Shown here one piece after another: positions 15,791 to 38,638 of a stretch of 64,000 bases of DNA. Within the stretch, counting starts at the first letter, position 1. The number at the start of each line of letters is the position of its first letter. The DNA is from Fusobacterium varium (GTDB taxonomy: Bacteria > Fusobacteriota > Fusobacteriia > Fusobacteriales > Fusobacteriaceae): NCBI GenBank assembly GCA_002356455.1, contig AP017968.1:2542001-2606000 (forward strand). The letters run 5' to 3'. The notes beneath the pieces are model-generated. The model did not search any database, was not told the DNA's origin, and worked only from the letters and a program-made list of their open reading frames with translations. A program made the position numbers and the translations under genes.

Positions 15791-18700
15791 TTATTGCTTT
15801 CTGAAGATATCTAATAGAGTATCATATTTTTTCTCAAATTTGAAGTCAATATGATAATTTATAGAATTTTTTGAATTTTCGTCGGCCTTAGTTTTAGCCT
15901 TTCTAGGAAGCTTTCCTGCTCCTATTCCAATAGATTGTCCAGGTTTAAATCTGTATTCTACTGAAAAGTCATATTCCTCAAATGCTCCACTGTTTCTCTC
16001 ATTATTATTTTCCGCGTTATCATCCCCCAATAAGGTACCTCTTGCTACCCAGTATAATTTATCTTTGTAAATATTATCTTCTGCTTCTATAACAGCACCT
16101 AAACGCAGTCTGTTATCCTCTGCATTTGGATTCTGATTTTCACTTGTTAAAATATTTGACTTTATTCTAAATTTTGATATATTCAAAGTATTTTTTATAA
16201 GATTTGAAACTGGTCTGAATATTGTTTGTGATAATTGACTTCCTATTACAGTTTTAAACAATGTTGCTGAGGCACTGTCAGAAAATTCTTCATCTCCTAT
16301 CAATAAAGATGACAAATTACCACTGGCACTTCCATTTTTAGATGTTATTGTAAATCTAAGGGCATCCAGTTCTCCATTTATGCTCATTCCTAATTCATCA
16401 TTCTGTACTTTTACTCTAGAATCTATAACTAAAGTTGGATTTACATTAGGAAAATAATCTTTTCTGTCATTAAATATTACAAGTGCTTTATCTAATTCAA
16501 ATGTATTTCCATTTATTGCTAATGAACCATTTTTTATCTCTGCATCTCCCAAGAAAACAAATTTTCCATTTTTACCTGAAAGTCTTCCTCCTCCTACAAC
16601 AATTCCTTCTACATCACCAACAAATATATTGACATCCTGTATATCAAGTTTGATTCCTTTATCTATTTTCAGAGTTACATCTAATTCTAATGATTTTTCA
16701 AAAATAGTGTTAATCTGAAAATCTTTTCCAAGATCTTCACTTTTATTTACTATTGATGATGATGATTTAAATAAAAAGTTCTTGATTATTTGAAATAATG
16801 ATTTTGAGTTACTTGGAATATTTTCAACTTCTCCATCTATGATATTAATATTTCCTGCTAATTTATTATTTTTCATATTAAATTTTGTATCAAACATAAC
16901 TCTAAAGTAATTACTGTATTTATAGTTCACTCCTTTAGTGTCAAGTGATATATCATAGTCTAAATCTTCCATATAATAAGGATTTTCAGCTATATCTGTT
17001 ATACTTGGCAATTCCAGATATCCTTTTAAAGTAGTATCCCCATCATTCAATTTTCCTTGGAAATTTTCTATGTAAAGACGTTTTTTATCAAGTTTGATTG
17101 TACTATTAAAGTTATCCATATTAATAAAAAATTCTTTAGATTTCATCCCAAAATTCATCAAATTGAAATACCCACTGTTTCCATCATCTTTCAAATCTAA
17201 ATTGAAGGCTGCAATTCCTTCTATATTAGTTATACCATATTTTTCTAAAAAAATGTTTAAAAAATCTAAATTTATTTTGGAAGAGTTTACTAAAAAGTTG
17301 TATTTTTTATTTTCTAATGTTATATCTCCTTTAGAATAAAAGGAGTTATCAAGGTACTTAAACGAAAATTCATCCAAGAATACTTTATCAAGATTTCCAT
17401 TTATTTTTATTAAAAAATTTTTAAAATTTATTTCTTTCATTGAAATAAGATTACTATTTATTTTTAAATCATATTTCAAGTCTTCCACTTTTCCAGAAAG
17501 TTTTCCATTAAAAATAAGATTTCCATTTACAATTTCTTCTTTTGTATACTCTTTTAATGTATCCAGTTTAACCACTTGATTGTCTATGCCAGCACTTATT
17601 TCTTTTGTCTGCAAATTATAGCCTGCTGTCAATTGAAGAATATCTTTCATATCCCCATTCGAAAGAACTATTTTATTTAATTCAATAGTTCCATCAGGAA
17701 TATTATCAGTTTTATATCTTCCCTCTACATATACATTTGGAAGTTTTGTTCCTCTCATGTATATCTTATCTATTGTAGAATTTAATCTGGCGTTTATTTT
17801 TTTATCTTCACCATCTACTTTCAAAGTTCCAATTACTCTATATTTTAAATTTGTATCTAAATAATATTCAGATGGATCATCCTCTATTATGTTTAAAATG
17901 GCATTATATTTTTTATTTTTCAAATTATATTTTCCATTAAAAATATTGCTGTTAAGATAAATTTTATTTGCCTTTATAAGTGATTTATAATAATTTATTT
18001 CTCCATGAACAAGGATATCTTTTTTTTCATCTCCAATATCCAGTTTTATGTCATTTATTTTTACATCTATTTTGGGATCATTTATCTTTCCATTTATTTT
18101 CCCTTTTACATCATTAATATAGAATTTAGGATATTCTATATTAAATTTTTCAAAGTCTAAATCTTTTACAGAAAAATTGATATTTGAAGCTAAATTTTTC
18201 AGGTTTATATTTCCGTTTATATCTACTATCCCATTTCTAAAATCTCTTATTTCAAATTTATCATCCTTTATTCTCATTGCAAAAATAAATCCATTAAGGT
18301 CATAATCATTATATCTTACTTGGCCTATGCTGCCTTTAAAGTCTCCAAAGATTTTTTCATCTTTTTTAAATTCAAACTTCCCAGCAATATCTTTAATTTC
18401 AGCTAGATATTTAAAAGTCAGAGATTTAACATCTACTGAAGCATTTATGCTTCCATTTTCTCCTGATATATGCCCATTAAGAGAAGCATTTAAAAGGGCA
18501 TCTTCATTCAAAACATTTCTCTCTACATTTAATTCTTCAGCATCAAATTTTAAATCATAAGACATTTTACTTATATCAGTTTCTCCAGTAAGATTAAAAG
18601 TTATTTTATCCTCATTTTTATCATGAGCAGTAAGACTATCTATCATTATTTTGTTATTTTCTGCTATAAAATCAAGAGCAAATCTAAGATTATACAGATT

Positions 18701-20230
18701 AAAATCTATTACTCCACTTCCTCTTTCAAGATTTTTATTTTTTAAATCATAATCAAGTGAAAATTTCCCTGCTCTGTAAAGATTTATTTTTTCTATATTT
18801 GAATAATATCTTCCTCTTAATTTAATAATATTTGACAGAAAATTAAAATTAAAATTTTTATTTTTTGTTTCAAAATTAAATACTCCATCAATATTTGGTA
18901 TATAATTGTTTATTGAATCATTTCCACTTATATCAAATGTTAAAGCACCTTCATCTTCAAAGTAATCAAGTGATAATACTATTTTCTTTTTAAAAAGTTC
19001 TTCTTTTCTTTCTTTGTTCCAGAATGAAAAATCTGTATTTAAATCCTTTATATGTATCCCTTTACTATCATAAACAAATTTTCCATTAGTATTTCTAAGT
19101 TCTAAATTATTTAAAATAAAATCCTTACTTAAAAAATCTATTGTAACTTTAAACTCTCTTTCTGGATTAAGATTAAGATTAAATTTCACATCATTTACAA
19201 TCAAATTCTCTAAAGGCAGATTAAGATCTTTTACTAGAGAATATTTTTGTATTTGAGGATATGTTACATTTTTAGCAGCAAAATCTATATTCAACTCATC
19301 ATCAGCATACACTAAAAGAAATTTTTCTTTTGTATCAAACACTTCATAATCAGCTTTTACTATTACAGTTTTACCTTGAAAATCCACTGTTCCTTCAGAT
19401 ACTTTTACATCAGTATCCAATTCTTTATATCTTACTGTAACATCTTTAAAATCTGCATTTCCAAATAAACCTTTAGGTGAAATTGAAAGATCCAGATTTA
19501 ATACTCCACCTTTGTATGATACCTCATCTCCATCATAAGCATATTGAAGTAATTCTGTTTTTACAGCTATGTCTTCAAGTTTTATATTTATATCATACGG
19601 CTCTTTACCTGTATTTAAAGCAAAAGTATATAACTGTTCTTCATTTTTGCCTTTAAATATCAGATTAATTCCTTTTTCTTTACTGAAAGTGAGAAATCCA
19701 TTTGTTCCATAAGCAGTTTCCTGTATAGGATTCGTATATGAAAGATCTGTATAATTAGTTGTAGCATTTATAGCAGTTATTCTATCTATAGGCACACCTA
19801 TTCCTGGTTTATATTCTTTTTCTTCTGCTTCTGTATCATTCTTTCCTTCTTTGCTTTCTCCAGTAAATGCTGCAACTATATTTATATCTCCATTTTTTTC
19901 TCGTGTTATGTTAGCTATTCCATCATATATTATTATCTCTTCTATTCTTAATTTTTTTAGTGATTCTTTTGAGTATAATAATTCAACTTTTGGAGCATCT
20001 ATAATTGTCTTTTTATTATTTATTAATTTGAGATCTTTTATTTCTATTAGTCCATACCTTTTAAACTCTATTGAACTACTAGAAATTTTAGGTCCTAATG
20101 CTATTTGGAGTATTATTTCAACTGTTTTTGACAGATGATATCTCACCGACCAATATCCTCCTGCCAAAATTAAAAAGAGGGAAAGTCCAGTTATGATTTT
20201 TTTCTTATTATTATTGTAAAATTCTTTCAT
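15791..20230 (-). CDS. tamB: TamB/YtfN-like translocation and assembly module protein
   Basis: A 1479-residue protein with one N-terminal membrane anchor (about residues 11-28), a very long repetitive beta-strand region (the beta-taco groove of the AsmA/TamB superfamily), and a C-terminal DUF490 domain from about residue 1150 (KGIKLDIQDVNIFVGDVEG and LVIDSRVKVQN). TamB-type proteins bridge the periplasm and are implicated in phospholipid transport to, and protein assembly in, the outer membrane. The start at 20230 has an AGGAGG site. It precedes bamA directly, with no tamA separate from bamA nearby, suggesting that it works with this BamA (inference). Confidence 0.92.
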   Translation of the reverse strand: MKEFYNNNKKKIITGLSLFLILAGGYWSVRYHLSKTVEIILQIALGPKISSSSIEFKRYGLIEIKDLKLINNKKTIIDAPKVELLYSKESLKKLRIEEIIIYDGIANITREKNGDINIVAAFTGESKEGKNDTEAEEKEYKPGIGVPIDRITAINATTNYTDLSYTNPIQETAYGTNGFLTFSKEKGINLIFKGKNEEQLYTFALNTGKEPYDINIKLEDIAVKTELLQYAYDGDEVSYKGGVLNLDLSISPKGLFGNADFKDVTVRYKELDTDVKVSEGTVDFQGKTVIVKADYEVFDTKEKFLLVYADDELNIDFAAKNVTYPQIQKYSLVKDLNLPLENLIVNDVKFNLNLNPEREFKVTIDFLSKDFILNNLELRNTNGKFVYDSKGIHIKDLNTDFSFWNKERKEELFKKKIVLSLDYFEDEGALTFDISGNDSINNYIPNIDGVFNFETKNKNFNFNFLSNIIKLRGRYYSNIEKINLYRAGKFSLDYDLKNKNLERGSGVIDFNLYNLRFALDFIAENNKIMIDSLTAHDKNEDKITFNLTGETDISKMSYDLKFDAEELNVERNVLNEDALLNASLNGHISGENGSINASVDVKSLTFKYLAEIKDIAGKFEFKKDEKIFGDFKGSIGQVRYNDYDLNGFIFAMRIKDDKFEIRDFRNGIVDINGNINLKNLASNINFSVKDLDFEKFNIEYPKFYINDVKGKINGKINDPKIDVKINDIKLDIGDEKKDILVHGEINYYKSLIKANKIYLNSNIFNGKYNLKNKKYNAILNIIEDDPSEYYLDTNLKYRVIGTLKVDGEDKKINARLNSTIDKIYMRGTKLPNVYVEGRYKTDNIPDGTIELNKIVLSNGDMKDILQLTAGYNLQTKEISAGIDNQVVKLDTLKEYTKEEIVNGNLIFNGKLSGKVEDLKYDLKINSNLISMKEINFKNFLIKINGNLDKVFLDEFSFKYLDNSFYSKGDITLENKKYNFLVNSSKINLDFLNIFLEKYGITNIEGIAAFNLDLKDDGNSGYFNLMNFGMKSKEFFINMDNFNSTIKLDKKRLYIENFQGKLNDGDTTLKGYLELPSITDIAENPYYMEDLDYDISLDTKGVNYKYSNYFRVMFDTKFNMKNNKLAGNINIIDGEVENIPSNSKSLFQIIKNFLFKSSSSIVNKSEDLGKDFQINTIFEKSLELDVTLKIDKGIKLDIQDVNIFVGDVEGIVVGGGRLSGKNGKFVFLGDAEIKNGSLAINGNTFELDKALVIFNDRKDYFPNVNPTLVIDSRVKVQNDELGMSINGELDALRFTITSKNGSASGNLSSLLIGDEEFSDSASATLFKTVIGSQLSQTIFRPVSNLIKNTLNISKFRIKSNILTSENQNPNAEDNRLRLGAVIEAEDNIYKDKLYWVARGTLLGDDNAENNNERNSGAFEEYDFSVEYRFKPGQSIGIGAGKLPRKAKTKADENSKNSINYHIDFKFEKKYDTLLDIFRKQ

Positions 20231-25065: not shown

Positions 25066-26307
25066 TTATTTTTCTTCAAAATTTATTTTTACTAAATTTT
25101 CAGCTATTTTTACAATAAGATCTCTTGCTTTTTCCATTGATTGAATACATACATACTCATATTTTCCATGAAAATTGTGTCCACCTGTAAAAAGATTTGG
25201 ACATGGAAGTCCTTTATAAGAAAGTCTTGCTCCATCTGTTCCACCTCTTATTGGTTTAATGCAAGGTTTAATATTAAGTTCTTCCATAGATTTATGAGCA
25301 AGATCTATTACATACATTACAGGCTCTATTTTTTCTTTCATATTATAATAACTGTCTTTTACCTCTATTTCTATTTCTGCATCTTTATACTTTTTAGCTA
25401 AATATTGTACAGCATCTTTTATAAGAATTTTTTTCTCATTGAATTTTTTCATTGAATGATCTCTAATTATATAATTCATTGAAGTGTCTTCCACAGTACC
25501 TTTCATATCATTTAACAGAAAGAATCCTTCATAGTTCTCAGTATACTCTGGTCTTTGCTCTACTGGAAGCATAGAATTTAGTTCCATTCCTATAAGAATT
25601 GAATTTATCATACTATTTTTTGCTGTTCCTGGATGAATATCTCTTCCTTTTATTTTAATTACAGCTGAAGCTGCATTAAAATTTTCATATTCTAATTCTC
25701 CTATCTCTCCGCCATCTACTGTATAAGCAAATTTACAATCAAATTTCTTTACATCAAAAAGATTAGCACCTCTTCCAATTTCCTCATCTGGTGTAAATCC
25801 TATTTTTATCTTTCCATGCTTAATTTCAGGATGGTCTTTCAAATATTTTACAGCTTCAATTATTTCAACTATTCCAGCTTTATCATCTGCTCCTAACAGA
25901 GTTTTTCCATCTGTAACTATAAGATCCTGTCCTATATAATTTTTTAAATGTTCAAAATCTTTTGGAGAAAGAATTATTTCTAATTCTTTATTTAAAATAA
26001 TATCTTCCCCATTATAATTTTCTATAATTCTTGGATTAACTCCTCTTCCATTGTAAGTAGGTGCTGTATCCATATGCGCTATAAATCCAATAGTTGGAAT
26101 ATCTAAGTCACAATTTGCTGGAAGTGCAGCCATTATATATCCATTTTCATCTAATGATATTTCTTCAAGCCCCAATTCTTTCAAATCTTCAATTATTACT
26201 TTTGCTAAATTCCATTGTATATCACTACTTGGACATGCTTTGTTTGAAGGATCTGAATCTGTATCAATTTTTACATACTTTAGAAATCTTTCAACTAAAT
26301 TATTCAT
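25066..26307 (-). CDS. pepT: Peptidase T (tripeptide aminopeptidase)
   Basis: A 413-residue M20B peptidase. Metal motifs: IAHMDTAPTY, GADDKAG, FTPDEEIGRGA, YTVDGGEIGELEYENFNAA, and the C-terminal GGHNFHGKYE. PepT removes the N-terminal residue from tripeptides in the cytosol. The start was set at ATG 26307, nine bases after AAGGAG; an upstream TTG in frame (26316) would give three extra residues but overlaps the Shine-Dalgarno. It has its own terminator. Confidence 0.96.
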   Translation of the reverse strand: MNNLVERFLKYVKIDTDSDPSNKACPSSDIQWNLAKVIIEDLKELGLEEISLDENGYIMAALPANCDLDIPTIGFIAHMDTAPTYNGRGVNPRIIENYNGEDIILNKELEIILSPKDFEHLKNYIGQDLIVTDGKTLLGADDKAGIVEIIEAVKYLKDHPEIKHGKIKIGFTPDEEIGRGANLFDVKKFDCKFAYTVDGGEIGELEYENFNAASAVIKIKGRDIHPGTAKNSMINSILIGMELNSMLPVEQRPEYTENYEGFFLLNDMKGTVEDTSMNYIIRDHSMKKFNEKKILIKDAVQYLAKKYKDAEIEIEVKDSYYNMKEKIEPVMYVIDLAHKSMEELNIKPCIKPIRGGTDGARLSYKGLPCPNLFTGGHNFHGKYEYVCIQSMEKARDLIVKIAENLVKINFEEK

Positions 26308-26383
26308 CAATAACAACTCCTTATATAATTTTAGTATCTATATTTTAGTACTTTTTTCAAATTATTTCAATCTCTATTTCTTT

Positions 26384-29466: not shown

Positions 29467-30753
29467 ATGAAAATAGCTATTATTGGAGCTCCTGACTCTG
29501 TTGAAAAAATATACAGTATACTTTCTTCTGAATATAAAGAAGTAAGTTTTTTTAAATATCCAAAAGAAAAAATTGAAGAAATGATTCCCCTTATTCAAAA
29601 ATTAGAAAATGATGTAGATGGAATATATCTTACGGGAATTGGAATTTATTCATCTCTTAATCTTAAAACTGATCTTTCTAACAAAGCTATTGTTTATACT
29701 AAAAGAGGTGAAATGGGAATAATCAAAGCTTTTTTATTGCTCCAAAAAGATTATGAATCCATAGATAATTTAAAAATAGGTATAGATCTTATTGAAGAAA
29801 AAATGCTAAAAGATGTCTTTGAAGAATATGAAATTCAAATAAAAAATTACTATCTTCAAAAATATGAATATTCTAAAACTGAAGAGGAGTATCTTAAAAA
29901 TTATCTTGAAAAATTAAAAACAAAAGAAATAGATTGTGTTATTACAGCTTTTGGATATATTTATTATTATTTAAAAAGACTTAATATTCCAGTTTATAGA
30001 CTACAAGCAACTAACACCGAAATAAAATTAGAATTTAAAAAACTTGAACTAATGGCAAAAATAAAAGAACTTGAAAAAACAGGTATTGGGGTTCAAATAA
30101 TTAAGCTTATTAAAAAAAATATTTCAGAACTTACTCAAAAGACTTTACAAAATAAAAATAGCTTTGAAACTCAACTATTAGAATATGCTAAAGAAATTCA
30201 AGGAAATATACAATTTCTTGGAAATGAGGAATATTATATCTTAGCTAATAAAGGTCTTTTATTAGATGAAGAAACTTTAAAAATAATTACTACTCTTATT
30301 AAAAATACTACTAAAAAAGATTTTTATGCAGGAATTGGAATTGGTGAAGGACAGACTATTTTGCAAGCTGAAGCTAATGGAAGAAAAGCCTTAAAAATAA
30401 GCCTTTCAAAAAATAAAAATGAAATATACTTTTATGATGGAAAAAATGTTTCTGGACCTCTGTTGACAGAAAATATGCTTCAATACAGTGATTCTGTCAA
30501 CAAAGATATTTTTGAACTTTCAAAAAAAATAGGTATTAGCTCTACTTATTTGGAAAAATTAAAATCTATTATAAAAAAATATGGTAAAAATACTTTTTCC
30601 AGTAAAGAACTTGCTGGAATATTTGAAATTAGTGAAAGAAGTGTCAACCGTTTGTTAAAAAAAATCATTGAAAATGGCTATGGAGAAGAGGCTGAATTTG
30701 AAAATACTCCTGGTGCTGGTAGACCTCGGAGAAAAATAAAATTTAATTTTTAA
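29467..30753 (+). CDS. CdaR/PucR-like transcriptional regulator with C-terminal winged helix
   Basis: 428 residues. The N-terminal two-thirds (about residues 1-220) looks like a sensor domain with no clear family. Residues about 270-330 resemble the degenerate GGDEF-like domain of CdaR/PucR regulators (FYAGIGIGEGQTILQAEANG, ALKIS). The C-terminus (about 350-428) is a DNA-binding helix-turn-helix (SSKELAGIFEISERSVNRLL) with a basic tail. It is transcribed just ahead of, and separately from, the AbgT operon; a terminator and a new promoter lie between. It is the natural candidate regulator of that operon (inference). Confidence 0.75.
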   Translation: MKIAIIGAPDSVEKIYSILSSEYKEVSFFKYPKEKIEEMIPLIQKLENDVDGIYLTGIGIYSSLNLKTDLSNKAIVYTKRGEMGIIKAFLLLQKDYESIDNLKIGIDLIEEKMLKDVFEEYEIQIKNYYLQKYEYSKTEEEYLKNYLEKLKTKEIDCVITAFGYIYYYLKRLNIPVYRLQATNTEIKLEFKKLELMAKIKELEKTGIGVQIIKLIKKNISELTQKTLQNKNSFETQLLEYAKEIQGNIQFLGNEEYYILANKGLLLDEETLKIITTLIKNTTKKDFYAGIGIGEGQTILQAEANGRKALKISLSKNKNEIYFYDGKNVSGPLLTENMLQYSDSVNKDIFELSKKIGISSTYLEKLKSIIKKYGKNTFSSKELAGIFEISERSVNRLLKKIIENGYGEEAEFENTPGAGRPRRKIKFNF

Positions 30754-30766
30754 AAGTATAAATTTG

Positions 30767-30804
30767 AAAGTAATTGTTCTTAATAAAAACAATTACTTTT
30801 TTTA
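30767..30804 (+). terminator. Rho-independent terminator after the CdaR-like regulator
   Basis: A 12-bp perfect stem (30767-30778 with 30788-30799, AAAGTAATTGTT arm) followed by a T run, ending the regulator transcript 14 bp after its stop. Confidence 0.85.
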
Positions 30805-30818
30805 TTGAAAAAAATACA

Positions 30819-30847
30819 TTGACAAATATTAAAAAAAATTGTATAAA
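30819..30847 (+). promoter_or_regulatory. Consensus promoter of the AbgT operon
   Basis: TTGACA (30819-30824) and TATAAA (30842-30847) with a 17-bp spacer. This is one of the best promoters in the window and drives the plus-strand genes from 30911. Confidence 0.8.
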
Positions 30848-30862
30848 CTATTTAACTAAAAA

Positions 30863-30893
30863 ATTAAAGACATATTAAAGACAAGTCTTTAAT
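30863..30893 (+). promoter_or_regulatory. Palindromic operator candidate upstream of abgT
   Basis: ATTAAAGAC occurs twice directly (30863-30871 and 30874-30882), and the second copy is mirrored by GTCTTTAAT (30885-30893), giving a perfect 9-bp dyad with a 2-bp centre. It lies in the early transcribed region between promoter and ribosome-binding site, where a repressor would act as a roadblock. Confidence 0.5.
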
Positions 30894-30910
30894 ATCTAAG
30901 GGAGGATTTT

Positions 30911-32482
30911 ATGACACAAGGAAATGTTAAAAGCACCAAAATGACAACTTTTATTAAAACTGTAGAAAGAGTTGGAAATAAATTACCTGACCCATTTATT
31001 TTATTTGGAATATTTGCTGTTTTCACTTTAATTATATCTCTTGTCTTATCAAAAATTGGAGTAGAAGCCTCTTTTATGGAAAAAGGTGCAAAAACTCTTA
31101 CCATAGTAAAAATTGAAAATTTGCTCACTTTTAATAAGTTAAGGCAAGTTGTTTCTGATTTTCCTACTACTTATGTAAATTTTCCATCTTTGAAACTTGT
31201 TCTTATTATGATGATGGCTATTGGAGTAGTTGAAGAAACAGGATTTTTTGACTCTGTCATGAGGAAATATTTATTAAAAGCTCCTAAAAGTGTAGTAACA
31301 GCTGTATTTATTTTTGCATGTGTTAATGCTAATGTTATGTCAGATGCTGGAGTTATTCTTACACTTACACTAGGAGGAGTTGTTTTTGCCTCAATAGGCA
31401 GAAGCCCTATCCTTGGAATAATGCTTGGATATGCAGCTTGTAATGGTGGATATTGTGCTAGTCTTTTAGTAGCTGGAGCAGATGCACTTGTAGCTGGCAT
31501 CACTGAACAAGTAGCTGTAGATGCTGGTTTTCATTTAGATATCAATCCTTTATGTAACTATTATTTCATGGCTGCTGCTACAGTAGTTCTTACAGTGGTT
31601 CTTACAATATTTACTGAAAAGTTCATAATGAAACTTTTTCCAGAAGAAGAAACTGCTGATGATTCTATGTTAAAAAAATATGAACTTACTGATTTAGAAA
31701 ATAGAGGTTTAAAATTTGGAATGTATGGTTTCATTTCTTTTGTAGTTATTATGCTTGCTTTAACTCTTCCATCAGAAGCTTTCTTTAGAAACGCTGCTGG
31801 AGGATTCTTACCTAAATCACCATTACTTTCATCTATTGTTGTTATCTTATTTTTCTTATTTCTTTTCATAGGAGTTAGCTATGGAGTGGGAATCAAAAAA
31901 ATAACTAGTGGAAAAGATGTTTCTAGGCTTCTTCAAGCTGGTGCAAAAAAATCTGCTCCATTGATGGTTACTTTTCTTACTTGTGCTCTATTTATGGACC
32001 TATTAAATAAAAGTAACATTCTGAGAATAATAGCTATAAAAATGGCTGAACTTATAAAAGCTGCAAATGTAGGTCCTTTATTTCTTCTTGTTTTGGTAAT
32101 TATCCTTACTGCTATGATGAATCCATTTATGACTTCTGCATCTACAAAATGGATATTGTTAGCCCCAATGGTAGTTCCTGTATTTGGAATGATTGGAGTT
32201 AACCCTGCTTATGCACAGCTTGCTTATAGAATTGGAGATTCAGCAACTAACATAATCTCACCTTTGCATCCAGCAATAACTGTTATCATTGGTCTTATGG
32301 CTCAATATAATTCTGAAAAAGAAAAGAAAACAGGAAGAAAAATAGAAGAAGCTGGTTTTGGAACTATATTCTCCTTAACTCTTCCTTATTCTATAGTTAT
32401 TCTTGTAACTCTTACTGTTCTTATGGTTATTTGGTATGTTTTAAGATTACCTATTGGTTTAGGTGTTTCTACATTTATATAA
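30911..32482 (+). CDS. AbgT family transporter
   Basis: 523 residues, about 12 membrane segments, with the AbgT hallmarks: RVGNKLPDPFILFG at the N-terminus, the conserved GGYCASLLVAG and NAD-like MSDAGV regions, and the C-terminal MMNPFMTSASTKW and RIGDSATNIISPLHP motifs. AbgT proteins carry p-aminobenzoyl-glutamate or export antimetabolites in other species. Here two M20 hydrolases lie downstream, resembling the AbgT-AbgA-AbgB arrangement, so uptake of an N-acyl amino acid or peptide is likely (inference). The ATG at 30911 has GGGAGG upstream. Confidence 0.93.
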   Translation: MTQGNVKSTKMTTFIKTVERVGNKLPDPFILFGIFAVFTLIISLVLSKIGVEASFMEKGAKTLTIVKIENLLTFNKLRQVVSDFPTTYVNFPSLKLVLIMMMAIGVVEETGFFDSVMRKYLLKAPKSVVTAVFIFACVNANVMSDAGVILTLTLGGVVFASIGRSPILGIMLGYAACNGGYCASLLVAGADALVAGITEQVAVDAGFHLDINPLCNYYFMAAATVVLTVVLTIFTEKFIMKLFPEEETADDSMLKKYELTDLENRGLKFGMYGFISFVVIMLALTLPSEAFFRNAAGGFLPKSPLLSSIVVILFFLFLFIGVSYGVGIKKITSGKDVSRLLQAGAKKSAPLMVTFLTCALFMDLLNKSNILRIIAIKMAELIKAANVGPLFLLVLVIILTAMMNPFMTSASTKWILLAPMVVPVFGMIGVNPAYAQLAYRIGDSATNIISPLHPAITVIIGLMAQYNSEKEKKTGRKIEEAGFGTIFSLTLPYSIVILVTLTVLMVIWYVLRLPIGLGVSTFI

Positions 32483-32530
32483 TTACTTACTAAAAAATTT
32501 AAAATACTATATAATTAAAAAGGAGATAAA

Positions 32531-33238
32531 ATGGAAAATTCAAATCACATGATTTATGCTAACCATCCTTTACTTTGGTTAATCTGCTCAATTGGAATTA
32601 TCATAGTTTTAATCCAATCTGCCCTAATTATTAAAAAGTCTATTCAAGCTGGAAAAGACATGGGAATTCCTAAGGAAAGAATGAATAGAGGAATAAAAAC
32701 AGCTGCAATTGCAAGTATTGGCCCTGCTCTTGGTGTTGTTGGAAGTCTTTTAGCCCTTCTTGTCACAATGGGATCTCCTGTTTCAGCTCTTAGACTTAGC
32801 GTTATTGGAGGTTCTAATTTTGAAGCTATGGCTGCTAATTTTGGTGCTCAAGCAATGGGATCAGAACTCTCTACTCATATGACACCTCTTGTATTCACAA
32901 ATGCTCTTTGGGCAATGGCATTAGGGTCTATGGGATGGATTATATTTGTTTTTCTTTTTGCACATAAGATGGATAGAGTAAATGGACTTCTTACTAGTGG
33001 AAGAAAAGCTCTTCTTCCTGCTGTAGGTCTTGGAGCTATGCTTGGTTCTTTTGCTTATTTCAACATAGGAAATTATCTAAAAGTTACTACAAATCCAAAT
33101 ATTACTTTATCTGCTGTATCTGGGCTTATTATAATGATTATTTGTTTAAAAGCAGGAGAAAAATTTAATTGGCTAAAAGAATGGGCTTTAACTATTGCAA
33201 TGTTTGGTGGAGCTATAATAGCTACAATAGCATTTTAA
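32531..33238 (+). CDS. DUF5058-type membrane protein
   Basis: 235 residues with about six membrane segments. An N-terminal helix (LLWLICSIGIIIVLIQSAL) is followed by a conserved loop MGIPKERMNRGIKTAAIASIG and further Gly/Ala-rich helices. By pattern it is DUF5058, whose biochemical role is unknown. It begins 48 bp after abgT with AAGGAG. The next gene is another small membrane protein and then two M20 hydrolases, suggesting a two-subunit transporter for the same substrate. Confidence 0.78.
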   Translation: MENSNHMIYANHPLLWLICSIGIIIVLIQSALIIKKSIQAGKDMGIPKERMNRGIKTAAIASIGPALGVVGSLLALLVTMGSPVSALRLSVIGGSNFEAMAANFGAQAMGSELSTHMTPLVFTNALWAMALGSMGWIIFVFLFAHKMDRVNGLLTSGRKALLPAVGLGAMLGSFAYFNIGNYLKVTTNPNITLSAVSGLIIMIICLKAGEKFNWLKEWALTIAMFGGAIIATIAF

Positions 33239-33266
33239 AACTATAAGTAACTAGGAGGAAATTTAA

Positions 33267-33944
33267 GTGAGTATTTATGATAACTATATTGAAAGTATAA
33301 CAAAAATTGGTAGATCAACAATGGTTTTAGGTTTAGTAGCAACTTTACTTCCACCTTTAGTAATGACATTTTATTTTGGTTTTAATCCTGGAATTGCAGC
33401 TATAATGGCTGGGGCCATTTCTCAAATGTCTGTTTCTGGTGCTTTTTATTTCAGTGAACCAATCAGCTACTATCCTATAGTTGGTAGAGCTGGACTTTAT
33501 ATGGGATTTTTATCAGGAAATCTTGTCAATATGAGAATCCCTGCTGCAATAGCTTCACAAGAAGCTGCTGAATATGAATCAGGTACTGAAGAAGGAGCTA
33601 TTATGGGAACTATTGGTATTGGAGTTTCTATTTGGATAGGAATAGTATTTTTACTTCTTTCTGTTCTTGCTGGACAAACTCTTTTATCAAAATTACCCGT
33701 TTCTTTCATGACTATGCTTAGTCTAATCATTCCAGCATTATTTGGAGGAGTTTTTGCACAATTTGCTATAAAATCTCCAAAAACTGCAATATTTGCTCTA
33801 ATAGTATCTTTTATCATGACAAAATTAGTAGCTCTTATTCCAGGAAATCCATCATTTATAGTAACATTGGTATCTGTTTTCTCAACAATAACTTTTGCTA
33901 AAAAACTAATGGATAAAGAACTTTCTAAAAAATCTGTAAAATAA
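33267..33944 (+). CDS. Membrane protein, predicted partner of the DUF5058 protein
   Basis: 225 residues with about six membrane segments and a short hydrophilic Glu-rich loop (ASQEAAEYESGTEEGA, about residues 93-108). I recognise no named family. It begins with GTG at 33267 preceded by AGGAGG and follows the DUF5058 gene by 28 bp; the next gene follows after 10 bp. Similar size and topology to its neighbour suggest a heteromeric permease (inference). Confidence 0.72.
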   Translation: MSIYDNYIESITKIGRSTMVLGLVATLLPPLVMTFYFGFNPGIAAIMAGAISQMSVSGAFYFSEPISYYPIVGRAGLYMGFLSGNLVNMRIPAAIASQEAAEYESGTEEGAIMGTIGIGVSIWIGIVFLLLSVLAGQTLLSKLPVSFMTMLSLIIPALFGGVFAQFAIKSPKTAIFALIVSFIMTKLVALIPGNPSFIVTLVSVFSTITFAKKLMDKELSKKSVK

Positions 33945-33954
33945 GGAGAATAAA

Positions 33955-35073
33955 ATGAATAAAGAAAGAATGATAGAAAATTTCTTAGAAATGATAAAAA
34001 TACACTCTCCTTCTAATGATGAAGGAGTATATGCTGAATACTTAATAAAACTTTTAAAAGAACTTGGTGGAGAAATCTATTTAGACAATGGATATAAAAA
34101 TTATAGAGGAAATGCTCCTGTTATTTTTGCAAAATTTCAAGGAAACTTACCTGAAAAAGGAGTAACTTTAGCTGCTCATATGGATGTAATAGAACCATCC
34201 TCAAATGTAAAACCTATAATAGAAAATAATATAATAAAAACTGATGGTACTACTACTTTAGGTGGAGATGACAAAGCGGGAATAGCTAGCATTATTGAAG
34301 TTTTAAGAACTATCAAAGAAAATAAATTAAATCATAGAGATATTTTTGTATTGTTAACTCCTTGTGAAGAAGCTGGTATGCTTGGTGCTAAAAATATTGA
34401 TTGGTCCTCTGTCCCTGCCCCTATGAAACCAGCTACAAATATGCTTGTTATAGATAATGCTGGTAAGGCTGGACTCATTGCTCATACTGCCCCTAGTAAA
34501 TATGGAATCACTTTTACATTTACTGGAAAAAAAGCTCATGCTGGAATAGAACCTGAAAAAGGAATTAATGCTGTATGTATGGCTGCTCATGCTATATCTA
34601 ATATGAAAATAGGGCGTATTGATGAATTTACTACTTCTAATATAGGAAGTATCAAATCTAATTTTCCAACTAATGTAGTTTCTGATTACTGCATATTTAC
34701 TGCTGAATTAAGAGGTCATTCTGAAGAAAAGATTATTGAAATGTTAAATAATTACGAAGAAGCATGTAAAAATGCCTCTATCTTATTTGGTGGAAAGTAT
34801 ACTATGGAAAAAAGTCATGATTATCCAGCTCTCAAACCAAAAGATGATTTGAAATTTGCTAAAGAATTTGCTAAAATTTATGAAGATATTGGCGTTCACT
34901 CAGAACTAAAAATAATTGGTGGTGGGTCTGACAGCAATATTCTAGCAAAAGAAGGTTTCAATTCTATAATCATTGGTGTTGGAATGTATGATGTTCATAC
35001 TGTTAATGAATATCTTGTTACTGATGATTTATTTAAAACTACAGAGGCTATTTTGAAGTATATCACAAAATAA
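33955..35073 (+). CDS. M20 family metallopeptidase, PepT-like
   Basis: 372 residues, paralogous to the gene at 7373. Metal motifs: AAHMDVIEP, GGDDKAG, TPCEEAGM, LVIDNAGKAG and DVHTVNEY; the dimer domain includes KKAHAGIEPEKGINA. It probably hydrolyses di- or tripeptides or N-acylated amino acids brought in by the adjacent transporters. AAGGAG lies 6 bases before the ATG. Third position in the putative transporter/hydrolase operon. Confidence 0.9.
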   Translation: MNKERMIENFLEMIKIHSPSNDEGVYAEYLIKLLKELGGEIYLDNGYKNYRGNAPVIFAKFQGNLPEKGVTLAAHMDVIEPSSNVKPIIENNIIKTDGTTTLGGDDKAGIASIIEVLRTIKENKLNHRDIFVLLTPCEEAGMLGAKNIDWSSVPAPMKPATNMLVIDNAGKAGLIAHTAPSKYGITFTFTGKKAHAGIEPEKGINAVCMAAHAISNMKIGRIDEFTTSNIGSIKSNFPTNVVSDYCIFTAELRGHSEEKIIEMLNNYEEACKNASILFGGKYTMEKSHDYPALKPKDDLKFAKEFAKIYEDIGVHSELKIIGGGSDSNILAKEGFNSIIIGVGMYDVHTVNEYLVTDDLFKTTEAILKYITK

Positions 35074-35098
35074 AGCCTCAGAGGAGAAGAGGGTCATT

Positions 35099-36418
35099 AT
35101 GAATAAAAATGAATTAAAGAAAAGAGTTCTTGCAGCTATCGAAGAAAACAAAGAAACAATAATAGCTGCAGGAAGAAAAATATATTCAAATCCTGAATTT
35201 GGATATAAAGAATTTGAAACAACAAAAACTGTAAGTGATTTTTTCAAAAATGAACTTGGATTGGAAGTTGAAGAAAAAATAGCCTATACAGGATGCAGAG
35301 CTAGAATAAATGAAGATAAATCTGGACCTAAAATAGCTATTCTTGGGGAGCTTGATGGAATATCTTGTTCTGAACATCCAGATGCCAACAGTATTGGAGC
35401 TTCTCACACTTGTGGACACAATGTTCAAATTGCTGGTATGCTTGGAGCCGCAGTAGGCCTTATCAAATCAGGAGTTTTTAAAGAACTTGATGGTAAGATA
35501 GATTTCATTGCAACTCCTGCTGAAGAATTTATTGAACTTGCTTACAGAAGTAAGCTTAAAGCTGAAGGACACATTAAATATTTTGGTGGAAAACAAGAAC
35601 TTATCAGAAAAGGTACATTTGATGATGTAGATATGAGTATAATGTTTCATGTACTTGATACTGGAGATAAAAAGGTGCTTGTAGGACCTGAAAGTAATGG
35701 ATTTATAGGAAAAGAAATTAAATTTATTGGAAAAGAATCTCATGCTGGTTCTGCTCCTTATGAAGGTATAAATGCTTTAAATGCAGCTATGCTTGCTATC
35801 AATAATGTAAATGCCCAAAGGGAAACTTTTAAAGAAGCTGACAGAGTAAGATTTCATCCAATCATTACAAAAGGTGGAGATATTGTTAATGTTGTTCCTG
35901 CTGATGTAAGAATGGAATCATATGTAAGAGCCAGAACTATTGACAGTATGATTGATGCTAACAAAAAGGTAAACAGAGCTCTTATTGCTGGAGCTATGGC
36001 TGTTGGAGCTGAAATTGAAATAACTGAGCTTCCTGGATATCTTCCTATTTTAAAACATAATGATATGGAAAAAGTTTTAAGAGATAATCTTCATTTCATA
36101 GGTCTTACAGATGAAGATATTATAGATGGTGGAGATTTTACTGGATCATTTGATTTTGGTGATGTATCTCATATTATTCCTACACTTCATCCAATGTTTG
36201 GTGGTGTAAAAGGAGCCCTTCACACTAGAGGATATTCTATCGTTGATGAAGAATATGCTTATCTTGCTCCAGCTAAATCTATGGCTCTTACAGTAGTAGA
36301 TTTGCTGTTTGATGGAGCTGAAACAGGAAAAGAAATTCTTAAAAATTTCAAACCTGTTATGACAAAAGAAGAATATCTTGCTTTCATGGAATCTAATGAT
36401 AAAACTATAAAAGCATAA
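35099..36418 (+). CDS. M20 family amidohydrolase (AbgB-like)
   Basis: 439 residues of the M20D amidohydrolase type. Metal-site motifs: ILGELDGIS, HTCGHNVQIAGMLGAA, TPAEEFIEL, MFHVLDTG and GALHTRGY. The dimer domain has GKESHAGSAPYEGINALNA. Relatives cleave N-acyl or aminobenzoyl-glutamate amides. As last gene of the AbgT cluster it parallels E. coli abgB (inference). It is followed by a bidirectional terminator. Confidence 0.85.
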   Translation: MNKNELKKRVLAAIEENKETIIAAGRKIYSNPEFGYKEFETTKTVSDFFKNELGLEVEEKIAYTGCRARINEDKSGPKIAILGELDGISCSEHPDANSIGASHTCGHNVQIAGMLGAAVGLIKSGVFKELDGKIDFIATPAEEFIELAYRSKLKAEGHIKYFGGKQELIRKGTFDDVDMSIMFHVLDTGDKKVLVGPESNGFIGKEIKFIGKESHAGSAPYEGINALNAAMLAINNVNAQRETFKEADRVRFHPIITKGGDIVNVVPADVRMESYVRARTIDSMIDANKKVNRALIAGAMAVGAEIEITELPGYLPILKHNDMEKVLRDNLHFIGLTDEDIIDGGDFTGSFDFGDVSHIIPTLHPMFGGVKGALHTRGYSIVDEEYAYLAPAKSMALTVVDLLFDGAETGKEILKNFKPVMTKEEYLAFMESNDKTIKA

Positions 36419-36430
36419 TTTTTAAATAAT

Positions 36431-36476
36431 AAAAATGAGGATAATCATAATAAATTATGATCTACCCTCATTTTTT
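36431..36476. terminator. Bidirectional terminator between amidohydrolase and LysR genes
   Basis: A long stem (AAAATGAGG…CCTCATTTT arms, with an inner TCATAA/TTATGA stem) with T runs on both sides, between two convergent genes. Confidence 0.8.
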
Positions 36477-37353
36477 ATTTTTCCATATTTCTGCACATTT
36501 CAATAAAAGACATTGCTGAAGAGCTTAAATATTTATTTTTGTGATAAATAATATTAAATTTTCTCACAAACTTAATATTATTTATTTTTACTCTGGAAAC
36601 TATTTTCTTTTCAAGTTCTTCTTTTACCAGATAATACGGTAATACTGCTATTCCTATATTCTGTTGTACAGCAATTACTAGAGCTCTTGTACTAATGCTT
36701 TCCCATAATGGTTCTATAGTTATTCCTCTTGAAAAGAGTATACTGTCAAATAATTCCCTTGTTCCACTTCCCCTTTCTCTCAAAAGAAAATTCTGATTTT
36801 TTATTTCTTCCAGAGAAACAGTTTCTTTTTGTGCTAAAGGATTGTCAGGACTACATATTATTACAAGTTTATCATCTAAAATAGGGTTGCTTATAATATT
36901 TTCGGAGTGTATTATTCCATCAATTATAGCAAGATCTAGTTCATTTGTCAGAAGTTTATTTTCTATTACTTTTGAATTTTCTATGTACACATTTATTTTT
37001 ACACCTGGATATATTTCAGCAAATTTTTCAACATATTTTGGCATAAAATAAGTTCCTGTAGCAATAGTAGCTCCTATCTTCAAATTATTAAATGAGTCAT
37101 GACATTTTAATTCTTTTTCCATTTCATCAAAAAGAGAAGTTATATGAGAAGCATAACTTAAAAATTTTTTTCCGGGTTCTGTTATATAAAGCCTTTTAGA
37201 TATCCTGTCAAAAAGTTTTATTCCATAATATTCTTCCAGTTCTTTTATAGCTAAACTTGCAGCTGGCTGTGCTATAAAGAGTTCCTTTGCTGCCATAGTT
37301 ACATTATTATATTTACATACTGCTAAAAAAATTCTAATATGTCTTAATGTCAT
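36475..37353 (-). CDS. LysR family transcriptional regulator (divergent from chromate transporter genes)
   Basis: About 292 residues: the N-terminal winged helix (LRHIRIFLAVCKYNNVTMAA, ELFIAQPAASLAIKELE) and a substrate-binding domain with a periplasmic-binding-protein fold. The start was set at ATG 37353 after AGGAG; an upstream ATG at 37374 is in frame but precedes the ribosome-binding site. It is transcribed away from the chromate-transporter pair, the classical layout for a LysR regulator and its target. Confidence 0.9.
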   Translation of the reverse strand: MTLRHIRIFLAVCKYNNVTMAAKELFIAQPAASLAIKELEEYYGIKLFDRISKRLYITEPGKKFLSYASHITSLFDEMEKELKCHDSFNNLKIGATIATGTYFMPKYVEKFAEIYPGVKINVYIENSKVIENKLLTNELDLAIIDGIIHSENIISNPILDDKLVIICSPDNPLAQKETVSLEEIKNQNFLLRERGSGTRELFDSILFSRGITIEPLWESISTRALVIAVQQNIGIAVLPYYLVKEELEKKIVSRVKINNIKFVRKFNIIYHKNKYLSSSAMSFIEMCRNMEK

Positions 37354-37483
37354 AATAAACACTCCTTCTATCATATAAAAAAAATTATATACTTTATAAT
37401 ATTATATTATTTTTTTTATAATTAAACAAGTTATATAATAAGTATATAAAATAAATAAAGTATTACGAAAATGGAGGTAAATT

Positions 37484-38059
37484 ATGGAAAACTTAACTTT
37501 ACAGAAAAAAAACTACTGGAAGCTTTTTACAACCATGCTTTACCTTAGTGCATTTACATTTGGGGGAGGATTTGTCATTGTTTCTCTTATGAGAAAAAAA
37601 TTTGTAAAAGAATATCACTGGATAGAAGAAAAGGAAATATTGAATCTCATAGCTATTGCTCAATCATCTCCTGGTTCTTTATCTATTAATATATCTATCT
37701 TGGTTGGTTACAAACTGGCAGGTATTCCAGGTGCATTGATTTCTATAACAGCTACAGCACTTCCACCACTTATTACATTATCAATAGTTTCATTTTTTTA
37801 TATATCTTTTAAAGATAATGTTACTGTAAATGCTCTAATGAAAGGCATGCAGGCTGCCATTGCAGCAATTATTTTTGATGTCACATTTTCTTTAGCTAAA
37901 GATGTGGTAAAAAGAAAAGAGTTAATCTTTAGTTTAATGACAGTGGCAGTATTTATTGCAGTATATTTCTTTGAAATTAACATTATATTTATAGTTTTAG
38001 TATGTGGATTTATTGGTGCAATTTCCAGCAGTTATAAATTCAAAACTCAAAATCTTTAA
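37484..38059 (+). CDS. Chromate transporter family protein, first half
   Basis: 191 residues, one CHR domain with about five or six membrane segments. Motifs: FGGGFVIVSLMRKKFV, the WIEEKEILNLIAIAQSSPG loop, and ILVGYKLAGIPGALI. Short single-domain CHR proteins work in pairs. The second half begins 6 bp later. Substrate may be chromate, sulfate or another anion. Confidence 0.9.
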   Translation: MENLTLQKKNYWKLFTTMLYLSAFTFGGGFVIVSLMRKKFVKEYHWIEEKEILNLIAIAQSSPGSLSINISILVGYKLAGIPGALISITATALPPLITLSIVSFFYISFKDNVTVNALMKGMQAAIAAIIFDVTFSLAKDVVKRKELIFSLMTVAVFIAVYFFEINIIFIVLVCGFIGAISSSYKFKTQNL

Positions 38060-38065
38060 AAAGAG

Positions 38066-38638
38066 GTGACATTTATGATATATTTAAATTTATTCATAAG
38101 TTTTTTCAAAATAGGACTGTTTAGTATAGGAGGAGGATATGCAGCAATGCCTCTTATCAAATCTCAAGTTGTTGACCTTCATCAATGGCTGACACTAAAG
38201 GAATTTACAGACATTATAACTATTGCTGAAATGACTCCAGGTTCTGTATCATTAAATTGTGCTACATTTGTTGGGATACAAATAGCTGGAATAAAAGGGG
38301 CTCTAGTTGCTACTCTTGGATGTATTACTCCTTCTTTCATTGTAGTAATGATTTTTACATTTCTTTATTTTAAATATGGAGATCTTAAAATTATCAAAGG
38401 TATTTTAAGAGGATTACGTCCTGCAGTTGTTGGGCTTATTGCTTCTGCTGGAACTACAATAGCACTTATCGCCTTCTTTGGAGATAAAATAAATATTCAG
38501 GAAGAACACATTAATTACATATCAGTAATAATTTTTCTTTGTGCTGTTATAGCTCTCAGAAAATTTAAAATAAATCCTATCTGCGTAATGCTTGTATCTG
38601 GAATTTTTGGAATAGGTGTGTATGAATTTTTAGTATAA
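38066..38638 (+). CDS. Chromate transporter family protein, second half
   Basis: 190 residues, the paired CHR domain: LFSIGGGYAAMPLI, HQWLTLKEFTDIITIAEMTPGS, and ATFVGIQIAGIKGAL. It is homologous to its neighbour and probably forms a heterodimer with it in the cytoplasmic membrane. A terminator follows directly. Confidence 0.9.
   Translation: MTFMIYLNLFISFFKIGLFSIGGGYAAMPLIKSQVVDLHQWLTLKEFTDIITIAEMTPGSVSLNCATFVGIQIAGIKGALVATLGCITPSFIVVMIFTFLYFKYGDLKIIKGILRGLRPAVVGLIASAGTTIALIAFFGDKINIQEEHINYISVIIFLCAVIALRKFKINPICVMLVSGIFGIGVYEFLV

Follow-up and report, generated by a model that had tools for sequence, protein, structure and literature searches.

Transporters of the LIV-E family (AzlCD, BrnFE and YgaZH; TC 2.A.78) are obligate pairs of membrane proteins, in which the large subunit AzlC or BrnF is joined by a small subunit of the AzlD type, with about 108 amino acids and four membrane helices (PMC8140960). 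As far as that source describes them, the characterized members export amino acids, and one of them, BrnFE, was found through sensitivity to isoleucine dipeptides and protects against the amino acids released from dipeptides (PMC8140960). In Escherichia coli, the carrier AbgT takes up p-aminobenzoyl-glutamate, a compound of folate breakdown, which is cleaved by a heterodimeric enzyme (PMC6002978). Antiparallel heterodimeric membrane pairs provide a further precedent (PMC3962082). The system compared here with these transporters is encoded in a stretch of 64,000 nucleotides from Fusobacterium varium (GenBank assembly GCA_002356455.1, contig AP017968.1, positions 2,542,001 to 2,606,000 of the forward strand), called the window below. 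Its core is a DUF5058 protein (PF16481) and an unnamed membrane partner, called PART, which behave as one unit across genomes and which might form an AzlC-type importer of amide-linked amino acids.

In the window, the pair belongs to a unit of five genes on the plus strand, separated by gaps of 48, 28, 10 and 25 nucleotides. An earlier note on this DNA had described the unit as an AbgT carrier, a DUF5058 protein, a membrane partner and two M20 hydrolases, and this composition was confirmed with Pfam:

30911 to 32482, plus strand: AbgT-family carrier (PF03806, 389.4 bits, cut-off 27; nearest solved structure 4r1i)
32531 to 33238, plus strand: DUF5058 protein, putative membrane subunit of 235 amino acids (PF16481, 203.2 bits, gathering score 28.2)
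33267 to 33944, plus strand: PART, the unnamed partner and putative membrane subunit, 225 amino acids, GTG start, no Pfam or NCBIfam family
33955 to 35073, plus strand: M20a, PepT-like M20 hydrolase of 372 amino acids (PF01546, 59 bits)
35099 to 36418, plus strand: M20b, hydrolase of 439 amino acids from the M20D amidohydrolase group (TIGR01891, 178.8 bits, above the cut-off of 153.75)

In Pfam, both M20a and M20b score above cut-off for Peptidase_M20 and M20_dimer.

PART follows DUF5058 directly and on the same strand in all 154 loci surveyed, with a median gap of 12 nucleotides and a single gap above 100 nucleotides. These loci are what remains of 156 after removal of a duplicate (L026) and of L065, in which DUF5058 is in two pieces. 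Their being distinct refers to the final 150 residues of DUF5058 alone, and closely related loci, for instance L022 and L023 or the Cetobacterium-like ones, remain among them; locus counts are thus numbers of distinct sequences, not of independent events. Three false DUF5058 matches (L037, L038, L093) were excluded, and L040, L041, L043 to L046 and L048 to L052 were left out because the set already has contigs of equal length. The 100 loci from the orders of a Clostridium cadaveris genome (G098) and a Tissierella praeacuta genome (G099) are mostly the best-scoring of the places found there.

DUF5058 scores above cut-off in 17 of 98 Fusobacteriota genomes, in 30 of 398 genomes sampled from the phylum of G099 and 23 of 299 in a second sample overlapping the first, in 16 of 225 genomes from the order of G098 and in 75 of 199 from that of G099. 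Among 201 genomes from the phylum of a Chloroflexi genome the single match is the seed itself, and the profile search gave no match in any of 14 control genomes. Searched alone, PART was found at strong E-values in the same 17 Fusobacteriota genomes. At E <= 0.001, 76 of the 199 genomes from the order of G099 have DUF5058, 77 have PART and 74 have both, and four of the five unshared genomes rest on fragments or weak matches. Eleven plasmid records also carry DUF5058. Eight annotated records were read (Natronococcus, two from Haloterrigena, Halobellus, Haloarcula, Halalkalicoccus, one from Paracoccus, and Paenarthrobacter); an Arthrobacter record has no annotation in the DUF5058 stretch, and two further Paracoccus records were left out. 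In the seven plasmid loci tested by profile, PART always adjoins DUF5058, and an M20 gene adjoins the pair in six; in the eighth (L242), known by annotation only, a 'hypothetical protein' and then an amidohydrolase follow DUF5058. The DUF5058 gene of L065 (6788-8188) is split by a stop, and the PART gene of the Paenarthrobacter plasmid locus L237 (6743-7251) is in two pieces; both copies may be decayed or misread.

The pair is frequently accompanied by a hydrolase gene. An M20 gene lies on the same strand, at most three genes away, in 124 of the 154 loci, and Pfam assigns the gene that immediately follows PART to M20 in 38 of the 48 cases scanned, taken from the 58 loci then known. In the 154-locus count, the labels M20, REG (a regulator described below), AMID, PucR, LysR and AbgT rest on profiles built from the neighbours themselves, with a Pfam check of the 48 genes after PART and of 38 others. 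As a control, 30 loci with an ordinary AzlC gene, taken from the same phylum, were examined: none has an M20 gene within 1.5 kb, against 17 of 18 DUF5058 loci when the rule is applied to these. The earlier note had regarded a pair that is widespread without M20 genes and tied to another process as counter-evidence, and this is not the pattern observed. Moreover, among the 30 loci that lack M20, 13 show a different kind of enzyme hydrolysing amino-acid derivatives next to the pair, namely D-aminoacylase-type amidohydrolases (L039, L084, L114, L132, L137), Amidohydro_1 (L088), an AAT acylase (L064), M42 (L090, L183), isochorismatase-type hydrolases (L135, L136, L157) and an ATC hydrolase (L167); the labels of L114 and L132 come from a self-built profile, and those of L135 and L157 from clustering with L136. 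This association with different Pfam families supports a role for the pair in the transport of amide-linked amino acids. In L137 (2482-8187), the pair is flanked by genes for Amidohydro_3, an Asp/Glu racemase-family protein and an S58 peptidase; these neighbours hint that the substrates at this locus might be derivatives of D-amino acids.

In the window, M20a reaches 266.2 bits with the peptidase T-like model TIGR01883, just under the cut-off of 274.25, which its relative in L021 exceeds (286.5 bits), and its nearest structure is peptidase T (3gb0, E 2.5e-61, residues 1-370 aligned). The nearest structures to M20b are those of PM20D2, a Xaa-Arg dipeptidase (7yh4, E 7e-35), and HmrA (3ram, E 8e-29). 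As judged by sequence alone, M20a and M20b are like these proteins over nearly their whole length. An aminobenzoyl-glutamate utilisation protein (3io1) is the last of the 11 PDB matches of M20b (E 2.7e-6).

The AbgT carrier has a different distribution. Two of the 154 surveyed loci, which are closely related to the window, have it within the unit, and the window itself is the third case; in L028, an AbgT gene lies two genes downstream of the pair, on the opposite strand. AbgT is therefore a local addition to a conserved unit, which is smaller than the earlier note had proposed, and it is ruled out as the defining partner of the pair. That note had itself named the wide occurrence of the pair without AbgT as an argument against its proposal, and this is what was found in 152 of the 154 loci. 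Thus, its idea that hydrolases are tied to the uptake of an N-acyl amino acid or peptide is partly supported, namely for the hydrolases, M20 or other, but not for AbgT as part of the unit. AbgT genes elsewhere in the genome are uninformative as a test of redundancy, because 16 of the 17 Fusobacteriota genomes with the pair have one above cut-off. In five genomes, an AbgT-family gene match spans one TAA (G000 C1:3165797-3167269, G006, G014, G027, G028).

With its AbgT-family carrier and two M20 genes, the operon of the window might alternatively be a salvage system for p-aminobenzoyl-glutamate like abgA-abgB-abgT of E. coli, with the pair as an accessory. The E. coli unit has the same combination of a carrier and two M20 genes, and its carrier belongs to the same Pfam family as that of the window. 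This explanation appears very improbable. The hydrolases of the window are nearest to other proteins (M20a to peptidase T, M20b to PM20D2 and HmrA), a comparison with AbgA and AbgB made via solved structures rather than by direct alignment; the window has an additional membrane pair; AbgT is not conserved in the unit; and the AbgT of the window, at 253.3 bits, is far below the cut-off of 864 of the equivalog NF008459 for p-aminobenzoyl-glutamate transporters. On these grounds, the p-aminobenzoyl amino acids suggested in the earlier note are weak candidates for the substrate.

A clue to the function of the pair comes from PART, although no match to a Pfam or NCBIfam model recurs among the 51 members examined. 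In ten further Fusobacteriota genomes, the PART profile has weak matches (E 5e-6 to 7e-4), all of which overlap AzlC matches; four of these places were read. When a profile of 149 PART sequences was compared with one of 19 AzlC sequences using hhalign, a probability of 89, an E-value of 2.1e-6 and a score of 47.2 were obtained over 91 columns, with PART residues 130-225 aligned to AzlC 145-235. None of 100 block-shuffled AzlC profiles reached this score (best 24.8), and the reversed profile scored 17.4. The AzlC profile combines the 16 of 30 fetched loci that passed the open reading frame (ORF) filter with three sequences found through the PART profile (L199, L200, L202). Against the 16 AzlC not found through PART, the score was 37.5 (E 7.2e-5, 89 columns), which again none of 100 shuffles reached (best 30.1; reversed 16.4).

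A forced global alignment, with E-values of 4.2e-5 (19 AzlC) and 5.7e-4 (16 AzlC), places N88-x-R90 of PART on an N-x-R motif of AzlC. Both residues of this motif are present in 19 of 19 AzlC sequences, and in PART N88 is found in 141 of 149 sequences and R or K at position 90 in 148 of 149. The reverse search was conducted on 4,604 ORFs, comprising all frames of the surveyed loci and of the seven plasmid loci. The 19-sequence AzlC profile gave 15 matches at E <= 1e-3, of which 14 are among the 165 PART-labelled ORFs and one is an AzlC-like ORF in L126. The 16-sequence profile matched the L126 ORF and two PART at the same threshold, and eight PART and two others at E <= 0.01. PART is thus likely to be a remote relative of AzlC, which gives a first hint for a partner to which the earlier note had ascribed no known function. 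A match of PART to MerF (E 0.019) was disregarded.

DUF5058 and PART appear to be inserted in the membrane in opposite orientations. Six long helices are predicted in the DUF5058 model, and the two models have a similar order of helices, with two long, one or two short and one long helix followed by more. The mean number of lysine and arginine residues in DUF5058 is 0.7 at the N terminus, 6.4, 1.6, 4.6, 1.2 and 3.4 in the five successive loops, and 0.06 at the C terminus; the corresponding series for PART is 3.0, 0.2, 2.3, 0.8, 2.0, 1.0 and 3.5, with loop limits chosen by hand from models and hydropathy. As the two series alternate oppositely, the positive-inside rule predicts that both termini of DUF5058 are outside and both termini of PART inside. 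The conserved residues cluster in the stretch between the second and third helices, which holds five of eight conserved positions in DUF5058 and nine of 15 in PART; the sets of DUF5058 and PART sequences gathered from the loci then known hold 53 and 51 members. The conserved residues of this stretch include R88 and E98 of DUF5058 and E64, N88 and R/K90 of PART. Among 153 DUF5058 members, P65 and R88 are invariant (153 each) and E98 is nearly so (152).

In being encoded by adjacent genes and predicted to lie in opposite orientations, the two proteins resemble the DUF606 pairs and the paired SMR proteins. Unlike in these pairs, no homology between the two partners could be demonstrated. With DUF5058 and PART taken as inverted, homologous halves, the models share the order of helices and the hhalign alignment is collinear, but its scores of 21.7 and 22.2 were equalled or exceeded in 2 of 120 and 1 of 100 shuffled comparisons. 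Other candidate relatives of DUF5058 were discarded. Matches to UppP/BacA and to the MFS are weak and mutually discordant and were taken as noise; from their letters, the false matches L037, L038 and L093 are presumably UppP/BacA-like, and L203 and L204 MFS-like. Four of 53 members are weakly similar to MotA/ExbB, with a best E-value of 0.0042 (PomA, E 0.024), and fold searches gave no support for this link.

The comparison with LIV-E transporters thus gives a mixed picture. The pair is like them in the profile similarity of PART to the large subunit, including the N-x-R motif, in being an obligate membrane pair, and in its tie to amino acids released from peptides, as described for LIV-E (PMC8140960). 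It differs from them in its second subunit, which is DUF5058, with 235 amino acids, instead of AzlD and is encoded first, and in its hydrolase neighbour, with M20 present within 1.5 kb in none of the 30 AzlC loci. LIV-E transporters are characterized, in addition, by the export of branched-chain amino acids or methionine. The pair is not classed as a LIV-E member, because the second subunit does not fit and the Pfam AzlC model misses PART. What the comparison suggests instead is an AzlC-type transporter of two subunits that has another partner and is often accompanied by a hydrolase gene. Among the open-licence papers searched, none was found that names DUF5058 or PF16481, and none that joins AzlC, amidohydrolase and M20.

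We propose, with a probability slightly above one half (about 0.52), that DUF5058 and PART form one AzlC-type two-subunit importer of amide-linked amino acids, which are cleaved by the neighbouring hydrolase. The two proteins would be obligatory subunits of a single membrane transporter, in which PART, as a remote relative of AzlC/BrnF, would correspond to the large subunit of LIV-E transporters, and DUF5058, a different and larger protein, would replace AzlD. The conserved stretches between the second and third helices might be re-entrant and form the substrate site, with their arginine or lysine residues binding the carboxylate of the substrate. Small peptides, or amino acids carrying an N-acyl or N-carbamoyl group, would be imported, and the co-transcribed cytosolic hydrolase would then release the amino acid for catabolism. 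In the window and its close relatives, the AbgT carrier would have been added to this unit.

Inward transport is favoured by further neighbours of the pair, which would consume the released amino acid. Within about 6 kb, five of six haloarchaeal loci have glycine-cleavage genes (L235, L239, L240) or lpdA/lipA (L236, L242), although the latter can also serve other enzymes; L241 has no glycine-cleavage, lpdA or lipA gene within that distance. In six loci (L173, L174, L185, L189, L190, L195), a glutaminase gene directly follows PART and is itself followed by M20; three of the glutaminases, and one symporter mentioned below, were checked with Pfam. Import is favoured because such catabolic genes adjoin several loci and because AbgT, the only other candidate for import in the window, is absent from the unit elsewhere. 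These observations bear on the opposite proposal, that the pair is an exporter or safety valve, the substrate entering by another carrier (AbgT in the window) and the pair expelling excess or exchanging the product. That proposal draws on the relationship of PART to AzlC and the outward direction of LIV-E members, on the protection that BrnFE affords against amino acids from dipeptides, and on the availability of other carriers for import, namely AbgT in the window and elsewhere in the fusobacterial genomes, and a second transporter beside the pair in some other loci. It has to contend, however, with the rarity of AbgT in the unit and with the catabolic genes just described, since export of the product makes less sense where it can be consumed; up to four full-length copies in one genome (G1089) also speak against it. 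On balance, export is less probable than import, though a serious alternative.

Several observations weigh against the proposed importer. Characterized LIV-E transporters export, and the way in which BrnFE was discovered fits an exporter as well. Some loci have another carrier beside the pair. Examples are a glutamate symporter, whose gene lies between glutaminase and M20 in two of the six glutaminase loci (L174, L185); MadM (PF03818, malonate/sodium symporter subunit), which directly precedes the pair in L183 (6021-6800, minus strand), with M42 two genes after the pair; and ABC-type (ATP-binding cassette) ATPases, which belong to a cluster found in 10 loci. A full-length PART with no DUF5058 match is encoded in G1035 (C179:2800-3444), where DUF5058 could be broken or missing or PART could work alone. 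In 17 of the 154 loci, three of which end at PART (L075, L109, L130), no hydrolase was recognised up to three genes away from the pair, and the M20 partners match many subfamilies, with no single substrate emerging.

The structural argument is subject to similar reservations. Omission of the partly circular sequences L199, L200 and L202 lowers the probability of the AzlC link from 89 to 63, the significant similarity is confined to the C-terminal half, and Pfam AzlC (PF03591) is absent from the 10 families matched by the 51 PART members at E <= 1. DUF5058 is not detectably AzlD or AzlC by profile comparison, with hhalign E-values of 0.065 against AzlC and 0.032 against 16 ORFs directly after azlC, presumed to be AzlD; against the same 16 ORFs, PART has an E-value of 0.0063. 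The single-chain models have low predicted template modelling scores (pTM), with 0.63 for PART and 0.66 for DUF5058, at mean predicted local distance difference test scores of 83.1 and 81.7, respectively. A sequence search of the PDB with AzlC as the query gave no match, and Foldseek searches with the DUF5058 and PART models returned best E-values of 0.87 and 2.2. Fold searches were likewise unconvincing, with best Z scores of 6.3 for PART (prestin, 184 residues, root-mean-square deviation 4.2) and 5.0 over 49 residues for DUF5058; the lack of a fold match was not taken to indicate a new fold.

The loci without a recognised hydrolase, the lack of a structural match, the remoteness of the AzlC link and the stray similarity of DUF5058 to MotA/ExbB could also be understood if genes of amino-acid catabolism were loosely clustered and the pair did something else, e.g., as an ion channel or sensor. 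This appears improbable, as the hydrolase next to the pair can come from any of several Pfam families, none of the 30 AzlC loci shows the M20 association, and the AzlC similarity points to amino-acid transport. The import of amide-linked amino acids thus remains the preferred reading.

The elements that flank the operon were also located, including the promoter, the operator-like palindrome and the terminator described in the earlier note:

29467 to 30753, plus strand: REG, putative regulator of 428 amino acids with a C-terminal helix-turn-helix (HTH_11, E 0.0011; GCH_III-like, E 0.001; both below cut-off)
30766 to 30800, plus strand: hairpin and U run after REG, probable terminator (-10.6 kcal/mol, z -2.8, 4 of 200 shuffles as stable)
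30819 to 30847, plus strand: near-consensus promoter, with TTGACA at 30819-30824, a 17-nucleotide spacer and TATAAA at 30842-30847, read from the sequence
30864 to 30895, plus strand: operator, direct repeat TTAAAGACATATTAAAGAC overlapping the palindrome ATATTAAAGAC-AA-GTCTTTAATAT
36432 to 36474, no strand assigned: terminator hairpin and U run between M20b and the LysR gene (-15.6 kcal/mol, z -4.9, 0 of 200 shuffles as stable)
36475 to 37374, minus strand: LysR gene, convergent, abutting the operon terminator

The direct repeat (30864-30882) overlaps the palindrome (30872-30895), which has perfect arms of 11 bp and a centre of 2 bp. The palindrome core occurs once in the 64 kb, and a match with at most three mismatches was also found in 23 of 100 shuffles; the direct repeat has one exact copy, and one with three mismatches inside the AbgT gene, and two or more matches were also found in 20 of 100 shuffles. 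A generic promoter scan is powerless in this AT-rich DNA, because consensus matches are as frequent as expected by chance (43 found, 43.5 expected); the scan omits the operon promoter, because it accepts a -10 box only if the sixth base is T. The operator is considered to be more than chance because the overlapping direct repeat is conserved in other genomes. The motif TTAARGACNTATTAARGAC, taken from the window itself, was scored over up to 160 nucleotides upstream of the first gene in the 152 of 154 loci with enough upstream sequence, 17 of them with a REG match anywhere in the locus and 135 without. At least 15 of its 18 positions are matched in 11 of the 17 loci with a REG relative (nine of 15 without the near-identical L022 and L023, the one correction made for kinship), in eight of the 135 loci without REG, all of them from Fusobacteriota, and in five of 850 letter-shuffled upstream sequences of REG loci. 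This tandem operator is conserved upstream in many relatives, and several of them have, as judged by eye, a similar promoter arrangement upstream of the repeat.

REG has no Pfam family for residues 1-219 and a middle part that weakly resembles GTP cyclohydrolase III. A relative lies on the same strand, at most three genes from the pair, in 14 of the 154 loci, and REG relatives adjoin DUF5058 pairs in fusobacteria and in relatives of Tissierella. In the window, REG is probably transcribed separately from the operon, because its own hairpin follows it. It is nevertheless the probable regulator: the conserved repeat, which lies shortly after the promoter, would serve to control expression, and REG, the most likely protein to act through it, may bind there, as its proximity suggests.

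A further M20 gene is probably present near the operon, on the opposite strand (window 25066-26316, minus strand), where an ORF of 416 amino acids is found, because an ORF of the same length on the corresponding side of L022 and L023 has 25% identity to M20a. The minus strand also carries an ORF of 1479 amino acids (15791-20230) within a long run of genes. Beside the LysR gene, two adjacent ORFs of 191 and 190 amino acids (37484-38638, plus strand) may encode a paired short chromate transporter.

The fusobacteria and the relatives of Tissierella and Peptoniphilus are amino-acid-fermenting anaerobes, for which the proposed importer, if it is one, would be a widespread route to acylated amino acids or small peptides. 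The substrate of each locus would then be hinted at by the hydrolase next to the pair and, in some loci, by the glutaminase or glycine-cleavage genes. It would give DUF5058 and its unnamed companion a testable function, in bacteria and archaea alike, and would represent a second branch of the AzlC superfamily, with another partner subunit and perhaps the reverse direction of transport. A more far-reaching reading is put forward tentatively, as a possibility short of an expectation: the pair might be a new class of two-subunit secondary transporter, a split and antiparallel assembly that combines an AzlC-type subunit with an unrelated or very anciently related partner. It would take up amino acids protected by an amide (N-acyl, N-carbamoyl or peptide), each pair being coupled through its gene neighbourhood to the hydrolase that opens the amide in question, and it would occur across Fusobacteriota, Bacillota, Chloroflexota, Actinomycetota, Pseudomonadota and haloarchaea. 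If this were true, the AzlC superfamily could no longer be regarded as consisting of exporters only.

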